Positions 20,172 to 23,305 of a stretch of DNA of 36,392 bases are shown in pieces. Under the pieces are notes generated by a model that made no database searches, had not been told where the DNA came from, and worked only from the letters and a program-made list of their open reading frames with translations. The position numbers and the translations under genes are program-made. The DNA comes from an uncultured Pelagibacteraceae bacterium (GTDB taxonomy: Bacteria > Pseudomonadota > Alphaproteobacteria > Pelagibacterales > Pelagibacteraceae). Position 1 is the first letter of the stretch. Each line of letters begins with the position of its first letter. The stretch spans positions 1-36,392 of the forward strand of contig CACIPT010000008.1 in the NCBI GenBank assembly GCA_902588595.1, given 5' to 3'.

Positions 20172-20345
20172 TTAGTCTAAATCTAAATCTCCACATTCTG
20201 TGTCTGTAAATATACATGTACTGTAATGATGAATTGCTTTAACATCTTTTACAACACCTAAAGCAGTACCTTCAACAGTTCCTGTTACCGTATTACATTG
20301 ATTAAGAGTAAAAAATGAAAATAAAAGTAAAATTAATTTTTTTAT
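20172..20345 (-). CDS. Small lipoprotein-like frame without a standard start codon
   Basis: A 57-codon frame directly behind nrdB, in the same frame, with no stop until TAA at 20174-20172. If the ATA at 20345-20343 is taken as the first codon, it reads (I)KKLILLLFSFFTLNQC and then a 40-residue mature part with GTVEGTALGVV and a final CGDLDLD. That is a typical lipoprotein signal: two lysines, about ten hydrophobic residues and a lipobox-like LNQC at residues 14-17. No ATG, GTG or TTG is in frame. An ATG at 20350-20348 is out of frame and stops after two codons. Either ATA initiates or a one-base change destroyed the start. Two cysteines besides the lipobox Cys could form a disulfide. Function unknown. 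Confidence 0.5.
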   Translation of the reverse strand: MKKLILLLFSFFTLNQCNTVTGTVEGTALGVVKDVKAIHHYSTCIFTDTECGDLDLD

Positions 20346-20357
20346 CTCATAGAAGCT

Positions 20358-21377
20358 TTATGAAAATGCTTCTGTCCAATTTCCTTGCGTAGACGCTTTT
20401 GAATATTCTGTTGCCCTTCCTTCAAAAAAGTTCATGTGTTCAACTGCATTCAACATTGTATCCAACCAAGTTAAAGGGTTTTTATCAATTTCATAAATTG
20501 GTTCTAATCCTAATTGAGCAAGTCTTCTATTTCCAATAAATCTTATATAGTCTTTAACTTCTTTTGCGGTTAACCCTTCCATTGATCCCATTTCAAAAGC
20601 TAAATCAATAAAAGCATCTTCATGATGCACTATAGTTCTGCAAGCTTCGTAAAGTTCTTTTTTTAATTCTGCTGTCCATATTTCTGGATTTTCCTTTATA
20701 AACTCTTTAAATAATCTTATCATAGAATTACAATGTAAAGTTTCATCTCTTACTGACCAAGTAACAATTTGGCCCATGCCCTTCATTTTATTAAATCTAG
20801 GAAAATTAAGAAGGATTGCAAAACTTGCAAACAGTTGTAGTCCTTCTGTAAAAGCACTAAACACTGCTACTGTTTTTGCAATATCTTTTTTTGAATTTAC
20901 ATTAAAGCCTTGCATGTAATCATATTTATCTTTCATTTCTTTGTACTTCATGAAAGCTGAATACTCAGACTCTGGCATTCCAATTGTATCAAGTAAGTGA
21001 GAGTAAGCAGCAATGTGAACTGTTTCCATTGAAGCAAATGCTGTCATCATCATTAAAACTTCTGTTGGTTTAAATACTGTTGTGTAATGTCTTAAATAAC
21101 AATTTTGAACTTCTACATCCGCTTGAGTAAAAAATCTAAAAATCTGAGTTAATAAATTTTTTTCTGACTGTGATAAATTTTTTTGCCAGTCTCTAACATC
21201 ATCACCCAAAGGTACTTCTTCAGGTAACCAATGAATTCTTTGTTGAGTTAACCAAGCATCGTAACACCATGGATATCTAAATGGCTTGTACACTGGATTC
21301 TCCACTAACAGACCCATTTTCTTTGGAGTAATTATTTCTTTTTGCTTATCTTTTTTAATTTTATCTATTACTGACAT
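20358..21377 (-). CDS. nrdB: Class I ribonucleotide reductase small subunit
   Basis: Ferritin-like radical-generating subunit. I place the start at the ATG at 21377 (MSVIDKIKK), because GAGGA at 21391-21387 lies nine bases ahead of it; that GAGGA directly touches the in-frame ATG at 21386 and could not serve it. Metal and radical residues (numbered from MSVID) are Asp87, Glu118, His121, radical Tyr125 (in ETVHIAAY), Glu178, Glu212 and His215. The tyrosine is kept, which fits a Tyr-radical (class Ia-like) enzyme. It overlaps the end of nrdA by 10 bases, is 339 aa long and has no ATP-cone. Confidence 0.95.
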   Translation of the reverse strand: MSVIDKIKKDKQKEIITPKKMGLLVENPVYKPFRYPWCYDAWLTQQRIHWLPEEVPLGDDVRDWQKNLSQSEKNLLTQIFRFFTQADVEVQNCYLRHYTTVFKPTEVLMMMTAFASMETVHIAAYSHLLDTIGMPESEYSAFMKYKEMKDKYDYMQGFNVNSKKDIAKTVAVFSAFTEGLQLFASFAILLNFPRFNKMKGMGQIVTWSVRDETLHCNSMIRLFKEFIKENPEIWTAELKKELYEACRTIVHHEDAFIDLAFEMGSMEGLTAKEVKDYIRFIGNRRLAQLGLEPIYEIDKNPLTWLDTMLNAVEHMNFFEGRATEYSKASTQGNWTEAFS

Positions 21378-23305
21378 GATAAACATTCCTCATAATCTTG
21401 TTCTTCATTTTGCTGATTTTTAGATTTATAAACATTTGCTGTAACATCGGTTAATTTTGCATCATTAATATTTTCAGCTCTTTGAATTGATTTAGATCTA
21501 CAATAATAAAGGCTTTTAAGTCCTTTTTTCCATGCTTGGAAATGAATTTGGTGTAGTTCTTTTTTGTGTATATCGGCAGGAACAAAGATATTAATAGATT
21601 GAGCTTGAGATATATGAGGAGTTCTGTCTGCGCCTAGTTCAACTATCCATTTTTGGTCTAGCTCAAAAGCTGTTTTAAAAACGTCTTTTTCTTGCTGGGT
21701 TAAGAAGTCTAAATGAGATACAGATCCTTGGTTGGTTGTAATACTAGACCATGTCTCATTATCATTTTTATTGTGTTTTTCTAATAATTTTTCAAGATAT
21801 CTATTTCTAACGTTGAAAGATCCAGAAAGTGTTTTGTGTGTAAAACTATTAGCAGCAATTGGCTCAACACCTGGTGAAGTTCCTCCACAGATAATTGATA
21901 TTGATGCTGTAGGAGCTATTGCTGTTTTGTTTGAAAATCTTTCTTTTATTCCATAGTCTGCAGCATCGGGGCATGCTCCTCTTTCTTCTGCTAAATCTTT
22001 AGAGGCTTTATCCACATCTTTTTGAATATGTTCAAAAATCTTTTTATTCCAAACTTTACTCATAACAGATTCAAGTGGAATCATTTTTTGTTGAAAAAAT
22101 GAATGAAGCCCCATAACACCTAAACCTACACTTCTTTCTCTTAGAGCTGAATATGTTGCATCACTAAATTCTTCGGGCGCTCTTTCAATAAAATCTGTTA
22201 AAACATTATCTAAAAATCTCATTACATCTCCAATAAAATTTTTATCATCTTTCCACTCATCATATTTTTCTATGTTTAAAGAAGACAAGCAGCATACAGC
22301 TGTTCTATCTCTACCATCTTTATCAACTCCTGTTGGTAAAGTAATTTCACTACATAAATTAGAAGTCTTAACTGTTAGCCCAGCAAGTTTATGGTGTTGT
22401 GGGATAAGTCTATTTACCGTATCAATATAAACTATATAAGGTTCACCTGTTTCTATTCTAGCAGTTAACAATCTTATCCATAAATTTCTCGCAGAAACAG
22501 TTGATTGAACTATTCCATCTTTAGGACTTTTTAATGCCCATTGTTCGTCAAGTTCAACTGCTCTCATAAATGCATCACTAACTAGAATACCGTGATGAAG
22601 ATTTAATGATTTCCTATTTGGATCACCTCCAGTTGGTCTTCTCATTTCAATAAACTCTTCTATCTCAGGATGATCAATTGGAAGATAACATGCGGCAGAA
22701 CCTCTTCTAAGTGAACCTTGGCTAATTGCCATGGTTAAAGAATCCATTACTTTAATAAAAGGAATTATCCCAGATGTTTTTCCAACTCTTCCAATTTTTT
22801 CTCCAATAGATCTTAGGTTGCCCCAATAACTTCCAATTCCACCTCCTTTGGCAGCTAACCAAACATTTTCGCTCCAAAGATCTAAAATTCCATGAAGACT
22901 ATCATTTGCTTCATTTAAAAAACATGAAATTGGCAAACCTCTTTTGGTTCCTCCATTTGAAAGTACTGGTGTTGCAGGCATAAACCAAAGATTGCTTATG
23001 TAGTTATATAATCTTTGAGCATGTAAATTATCATCTGCATAATGACTTGCTACTCTTGCAAATAGATCTTGGAAGGATTCGTTATAACCTAAATATCTAT
23101 CGCTTAGAGTTGCTTTTCCAAACGATGTAAGATTTTCATCTTTGGATCGATCAATTTTAATTGTTATCCCTTTTGAATTTTGAAATAGTTCTGTTTCGTT
23201 GTTTAAAGAAAATAAATCTGGTCTTTTATCTAAATGGTTTTCTTGGGTAGTTGGTGAAAATTCAGAGACAGCTTTCTTAATGGCTTGAGATAAAACTTTG
23301 TTCAT
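21368..23305 (-). CDS. nrdA: Class I ribonucleotide reductase large subunit (no ATP-cone)
   Basis: Reduces ribonucleoside diphosphates to deoxy forms. Active-site residues are Cys128 (PISCFLN), Asn316-Cys318-Glu320 (SNLCSEI) and the Cys338/Cys339 pair; Tyr600-Tyr601 (SLYYCRSK) form the radical path to NrdB. The swinging C-terminal cysteines are a CLSC pair at 641-644 rather than the CxxxxC of E. coli. At 645 aa it is about 115 shorter than E. coli NrdA, and the N-terminus does not show the ATP-cone, so the overall-activity site seems absent. A good ribosome-binding site, AAGGGAG, lies at 23316-23310. The upstream region is shared with pgm. Confidence 0.95.
   Translation of the reverse strand: MNKVLSQAIKKAVSEFSPTTQENHLDKRPDLFSLNNETELFQNSKGITIKIDRSKDENLTSFGKATLSDRYLGYNESFQDLFARVASHYADDNLHAQRLYNYISNLWFMPATPVLSNGGTKRGLPISCFLNEANDSLHGILDLWSENVWLAAKGGGIGSYWGNLRSIGEKIGRVGKTSGIIPFIKVMDSLTMAISQGSLRRGSAACYLPIDHPEIEEFIEMRRPTGGDPNRKSLNLHHGILVSDAFMRAVELDEQWALKSPKDGIVQSTVSARNLWIRLLTARIETGEPYIVYIDTVNRLIPQHHKLAGLTVKTSNLCSEITLPTGVDKDGRDRTAVCCLSSLNIEKYDEWKDDKNFIGDVMRFLDNVLTDFIERAPEEFSDATYSALRERSVGLGVMGLHSFFQQKMIPLESVMSKVWNKKIFEHIQKDVDKASKDLAEERGACPDAADYGIKERFSNKTAIAPTASISIICGGTSPGVEPIAANSFTHKTLSGSFNVRNRYLEKLLEKHNKNDNETWSSITTNQGSVSHLDFLTQQEKDVFKTAFELDQKWIVELGADRTPHISQAQSINIFVPADIHKKELHQIHFQAWKKGLKSLYYCRSKSIQRAENINDAKLTDVTANVYKSKNQQNEEQDYEECLSCQ

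Follow-up and report, generated by a model that had tools for sequence, protein, structure and literature searches.

Introduction

AUA is known to initiate translation in Staphylococcus and Listeria. In the part of the S. aureus report that was available (PMC13009471), ribosomes accumulate at the AUA codon of infC, and for ccpN and citZ the AUA reporters reach about 10% of the AUG level in poor medium, the value for ccpN rising to as much as 30% in rich medium. For Listeria, the accessible portion of the report (PMC13068326) describes an rsbW reporter in which the change of ATG to ATA left a lower but still detectable signal.

It is useful to compare these systems with a small lipoprotein gene located directly behind nrdB in an uncultured Pelagibacteraceae bacterium of the SAR11 group. 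According to the available part of the S. aureus report (PMC13009471), infC, ccpN and citZ have AUA at the start position, as the SAR11 gene does; the citZ AUA belongs to one strain lineage, and the SAR11 AUA to one genome. The S. aureus starts were studied by ribosome profiling, with reporters in addition for ccpN and citZ, while the SAR11 case is known from its sequence alone. The SAR11 AUA has no visible Shine-Dalgarno sequence, unlike the AUA-started genes described in that part of the S. aureus report. The rsbW gene of Listeria monocytogenes is also a downstream operon gene, with a single start substitution such as is probable for the SAR11 gene. However, as far as the accessible portion of that report goes (PMC13068326), its mutants came from laboratory acid selection and have a secondary start 6 bp downstream, of which the SAR11 gene has no counterpart.

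Among SAR11 bacteria, the nrdB-linked lipoproteins of loci L003 and L004, of genome G436 and of others share place, lipobox and core with the gene considered here. They have a canonical start, whereas this member is without one, and gene callers demanding ATG, GTG or TTG would miss it.

Organization of the locus

The window, that is the whole stretch of DNA analysed, has a length of 36,392 nucleotides (contig CACIPT010000008.1). An earlier note had described, behind nrdB, a lipoprotein frame of 57 codons counted from ATA, with the lipobox LNQC and no usable start codon, and also an out-of-frame ATG five bases upstream that reads ATG AGA TAA (20350-20342). Re-reading of the sequence bears out each of these observations. 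The features of the locus are as follows.

20358..21386, minus strand: upstream gene, which we take, as the earlier note did, to be nrdB (ribonucleotide reductase small subunit)
20360-20358, minus strand: nrdB stop TAA
20172..20357, minus strand: lipoprotein open frame from stop to stop, 61 codons plus stop, in the nrdB frame
20342..20350, minus strand: ATG AGA TAA, an out-of-frame two-codon ORF whose stop overlaps ATA (ATAA)
20346..20348, minus strand: GAG, codon 4 after the nrdB stop
20343..20345, minus strand: ATA, codon 5 after the nrdB stop, preceding the Lys-Lys of the signal peptide
20337..20343, minus strand: run of seven A (A7)
20295..20306, minus strand: lipobox LNQC, with the codon of the lipid-bearing Cys at 20297-20295
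20175..20297, minus strand: mature part of 41 residues, CNTVTGTVEGTALGVVKDVKAIHHYSTCIFTDTECGDLDLD, with two further conserved Cys
20174-20172, minus strand: lipoprotein stop codon
19045..20169, plus strand: convergent gene, presumably gltA-like (citrate synthase)

A comparison of the ORFs in the window places the lipoprotein in the same frame as nrdB. After the nrdB stop the sequence reads AGC TTC TAT GAG ATA AAA AAA TTA ..., and none of the codons ATG, GTG, TTG and CTG is present in frame between this stop and the Cys codon. The ATA follows the nrdB stop at a distance of 12 nt, and the gltA-like gene and the lipoprotein stop are separated by 2 nt. Reading from AUA would give fMet-K-K-L-I-L-L-L-F-S-F-F-T-L-N-Q-C. 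No Shine-Dalgarno-like sequence was seen before the ATA on inspection, and the RNA folding around the start is unremarkable (z -0.47). The AlphaFold model of the lipoprotein is poor (mean pLDDT 64.9, pTM 0.31). The mature part contains a predicted tryptic peptide, AIHHYSTCIFTDTECGDLDLD.

The lipoprotein family

As judged from sequence comparison, the lipoprotein is a real gene that belongs to a conserved accessory family of SAR11. Relatives of the peptide were found at no fewer than 25 loci on genome contigs (at least 25), with all records assigned to Pelagibacteraceae, Pelagibacterales or Pelagibacter. At the family level 14 of 297 genomes match the peptide, the window's own genome included. 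At the genus level the number is 23 of 399, many of these genomes being incomplete, and it includes the window's own genome and three weak matches of a distant group (E 1e-7 to 1e-8). A repeat genus search centred on G436 gave 17 of 348, and all the gene-bearing genomes were already present in the draw of 399. The class-level profile search of 289 genomes matched the window's own genome alone, and no relatives of the lipoprotein were found among viral contigs and phages; a viral or wider origin was rejected on these two results. The solved structures contain no match to the lipoprotein, and with E values up to 1 the window's protein is assigned to no family by Pfam or NCBIfam. The comparison thus documents a small, patchy family of nrdB-linked SAR11 lipoproteins that has no model in these two collections.

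The fetched loci contain 37 distinct members of the subfamily, the window's included, and all are from SAR11. Twenty-six of these 37 are in a locus with nrdB and 11 are elsewhere. The family core consists of the lipobox Cys followed by NTVTG (CNTVTG), the motif HY.TC.FT and a final Cys. The window's protein has all of these elements, and its gene is located directly behind nrdB on the same strand. An in-frame ATG, GTG or TTG precedes the signal peptide in 34 of the 37 distinct members, the window's not being one of them. The stop-to-Cys distances indicate that family genes behind nrdB start near the nrdB stop.

Members at L005, L008, L013, L016 and L027 are away from nrdB and have varied neighbours, some of which are presumably methyltransferases, judging by a motif. 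In their mature parts L005 and L003 are identical except for one residue. This near-identity suggests that the lipoprotein gene moves between sites. In L063 (genome G387) and L064 (genome G453), visual inspection shows nrdB followed immediately by the end of the convergent gltA-like gene.

A second, distant lipoprotein group is found at L039, L040, L059 and L060, with the sequence CSTAVTVVDTTASVAINTxKGVxHYSTCPFTKKECF; it has the same HYSTC.FT..C core. A member of the L040 type weakly resembles the lipoprotein model NF038104 (NCBIfam, E = 2.7e-05, below the cut-off of the model). The entericidins EcnA and EcnB of E. coli are short lipoproteins too, and the distant SAR11 members L038 and L041 show ACNT at the lipobox. 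Two other family members gave E = 0.074 with the entericidin B model and E = 0.41 with the entericidin A model, both far below cut-off, and the window's protein is unmatched by the entericidin models of NCBIfam.

The start region in the closest relatives

The window and its three closest relatives with the gene, L003 (which belongs to genome G474), L004 and G436, share a spacing of exactly 60 nt between the nrdB stop and the lipid-bearing Cys. These relatives have 88-89% DNA identity to the window. In the 22 other distinct sequences of the 26 compared, the distance is 38-59 nt. Where the window has GAG at codon 4 from the nrdB stop, L003 and L004 have GTG, and where it has ATA at codon 5, G436 has ATG; L003 and L004 start one codon earlier than the window's ATA. 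Among the sequences compared, the ATA start region was seen in the window's genome only, the searches having turned up no second genome of the species. The equal spacing, together with GTG or ATG at these codons of the relatives, suggests that the start was lost by substitution, for which a change of one base would be sufficient.

Pairwise alignments of the start region were run under four gap settings. The ATA of the window coincides with the ATG of G436 under every one of them, so that AUA occupies the place of a homologous start, with no canonical start in frame. Under one of the four settings the window aligns without gaps against L003, L004 and G436 alike. Which of the two codons changed is less clear. 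The GTG of L003 and L004 favours a change at codon 4, while the ATG of G436 and the alignment of L006 favour codon 5. The GTG of L006 is codon 4 when counted from the stop, but all four alignments place it on the ATA, with a gap of 3 nt after the stop and the AT of the window on the GT of this GTG (the spacing in L006 is 59 nt). As an outgroup, L006 does not decide between a change at codon 4 and one at codon 5, and its GTG is not taken as support for GTG-to-GAG. In a tree of nrdA, nrdB and gltA (15 sequences), L003, L004 and G436 are grouped apart from the window and the rest with a support of 99, and L004 is placed beside G436 with a support of 76.

The earlier note had offered three explanations: a non-standard ATA start, a fresh frameshift, or a slip near the run of seven A, with one base missing between the upstream ATG and the signal peptide. 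The first of these is the best of the three, and the other two appear less likely than a substitution. The distance from the upstream ATG to the Cys is 53 nt, compared with 51 nt from the start of L003 and L004, which would mean two extra bases instead of one missing. Because the out-of-frame ATG AGA TAA already ends in a stop at the left edge of the A7 run, a longer or shorter run would be useless to the window, and rescue by slippage would be closed to it for the same reason. A separation of start and body by a homopolymer only is seen in L006 and does not fit the window.

In a more general form, the ATG at 20350 might still be the old start, shifted out of frame by small indels. The TG of this ATG aligns with the TG of the GTG of L004 under three of the four settings and with that of L003 under one, and L006 and L058 appear to have indels just behind the start. 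However, the TG of the relative's ATG is matched under none of the settings in G436, whose ATG aligns with the ATA throughout, and the TG-on-TG alignments of L003 and L004 need several compensating indels. With the 60-nt spacing kept in all four genomes, these would have to cancel exactly, and the two extra bases stand against the shift as well. We regard it as decidedly unlikely.

Assembly quality and other starts in the genome

The lost start could also be an error of one base in the assembled contig, the true base giving ATG or GTG. The window is one substitution away from a start in two ways (GAG from GTG and ATA from ATG), and GTG for ATA, by way of ATG first, may be counted too. The genome is 64% complete and is divided into 47 contigs, as would be expected of single-cell or binned material, and isolated base errors occur in such genomes. 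For the rest of the assembly, 758,378 bases of the window's genome were set against L003, L004 and stretches of genomes G436 and G474. No split gene was found among 269 ORFs of the relatives of at least 150 codons, in a scan that had no positive control and counted some genes twice; this also speaks against a fresh frameshift in the lipoprotein gene.

The scan of starts covered 323 gene pairs, corresponding to 271 distinct ORFs after removal of overlapping antisense ORFs. A canonical start was missing within 12 codons of the relative's start only for the lipoprotein (4 pairs) and for one other flagged case. The latter, L112 against L160, was rejected as a probably spurious ORF in which the chosen start of the relative is deep inside the frame. 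In 17 pairs a start was present within 12 codons but off the aligned place, and in 3 pairs the place was past the end of the frame. With no split gene and no other credible lost start among the 271, the assembly appears to be of good quality, and it is improbable that an error would have struck precisely at this codon. A faulty base call is accordingly very doubtful as the source of the missing start. For the part compared, both a use of AUA throughout the genome and a widespread loss of starts were rejected, the lipoprotein being the sole credible case.

An SD-like 4-mer is found upstream of 56 of the 271 ORF starts, when the first possible start is taken; the corresponding value for random 19-mers is 8.3%. 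By this count, starts without a Shine-Dalgarno sequence look usual in the window's genome. The infC gene, which starts with AUU in E. coli, has in this genome an in-frame GTG directly after a stop. A GTG right after a TAA stop was found for infC in L188 and in 7 of 9 others (L189-L197), the seven being those readable by script. A coupling of the SAR11 infC GTG start to the preceding stop is possible. A literature search for AUA start codons in SAR11 and for the start of Pelagibacter infC found no published account.

Selection and the possible use of AUA

The earlier note had considered that its proposal would fall if related genomes lacked a conserved frame or if the codons showed no conservation at the protein level. 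The frame is conserved and the mature part is under purifying selection, with dN/dS values of 0.037 against L003, 0.094 against L004 and 0.167 against G436, and it contains no stop or frameshift. Ala 21 is the single residue unlike L003, L004 and G436, and it recurs in L048; compared with ten hand-picked relatives, L048 among them, the window has no private residue.

The dS of the neighbouring genes to L003, L004 and G436 is 0.66-0.74. A hand estimate, built on the dS to L003 of about 0.72 and on branch lengths of the nrdA, nrdB and gltA tree, gives about 34 amino-acid-changing substitutions for free drift along the whole window branch. The mature part shows 3 changes relative to L003, on both branches together. 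The comparison of 3 with about 34 suggests that the unconstrained time was at most about a quarter of the window branch. Purifying selection of this kind fits both continued use and recent loss of the gene.

These observations allow us to propose, with a probability of about 0.45, that a substitution removed the start of a conserved accessory gene behind nrdB, and that the gene is still translated at a low level from AUA. In this lineage codon 4 would have changed from GTG to GAG, or codon 5 from ATG or GTG to ATA, and AUA would be the remaining near-cognate start ahead of the Lys-Lys of the signal peptide. Termination of nrdB 12 nt upstream may help initiation at AUA by translational coupling, and ribosomes coming off nrdB probably translate the lipoprotein gene. 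The initiation at AUA in Staphylococcus and Listeria makes low-level expression plausible. Against this use of AUA, there is no sign of AUA starts elsewhere in the compared part of the genome, where infC uses GTG, and the out-of-frame AUG 5 nt upstream could compete.

The two-codon ORF AUG-AGA-UAA may draw ribosomes away from the AUA or, alternatively, supply them to it for re-initiation, and its stop overlaps the AUA in an AUAA that resembles the usual AUGA of coupled genes. A maintained AUA start, in which ribosomes leaving nrdB are caught by this ORF and re-initiate at AUA to give a fixed low dose of the protein, would be one outcome; it seems to us quite improbable. Readthrough of the nrdB stop was also considered and was rejected as a conserved route, an extra TAG being present between nrdB and the lipoprotein in L003 and G436. 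It is further disfavoured by the position of the Cys out of the nrdB frame in 16 of 26 distinct sequences, and a signal peptide in the middle of a protein makes little sense.

The same substitution could instead have silenced the gene, leaving a young pseudogene whose protein is intact because there was little time for drift. The gene is accessory, as seen from its occurrence in the genus, and the close relatives G387 (96% NrdB) and G453 (92%) are without it at this place. An in-frame start is missing from three of the 26 distinct nrdB-linked members (those of the window, L006 and L058), compared with 0 of 11 elsewhere. Two other broken 5' ends and the absence of the gene from most of the genus genomes searched make simple decay plausible, and selection limits just the unconstrained time, to under roughly a quarter of the branch. 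However, the mature part is free of stops and frameshifts and has one residue unlike all three closest relatives, and AUA initiates in other bacteria. Silencing is thus a possible but somewhat unlikely account.

Sequence by itself cannot separate weak AUA initiation, a recent loss of the start and an error of one base. Taken together, the comparisons indicate that the start was most likely substituted in a genuine conserved accessory lipoprotein gene, with no new mechanism needed, and that the protein either continues to be made, probably at a low level from the AUA behind nrdB, or recently ceased to be produced. In this abundant marine bacterium the gene offers a natural case of balance between loss and weak initiation at a non-canonical codon. 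If AUA is used, the known range of initiation at this codon would come to include a genome where Shine-Dalgarno sequences precede few of the starts.

Other members with damaged 5' ends

The gene of L058/L067 (genome G330) has an ATG CTA start and a stop-to-Cys distance of 50 nt, with two apparent indels relative to L015 as judged by eye. Its mature part contains three unusual residues, and the gene appears to be in decay.

In E. coli and Buchnera, according to the available part of the report, insertions by transcription slippage rise exponentially with the length of the run (PMC5574713). The member at L006:2983-3060 (the same as L044, genome G515) has a GTG that precedes a run of nine A and is shifted by one base from the lipoprotein frame. 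By analogy, slippage on this A9 run could restore the frame in part of its transcripts.
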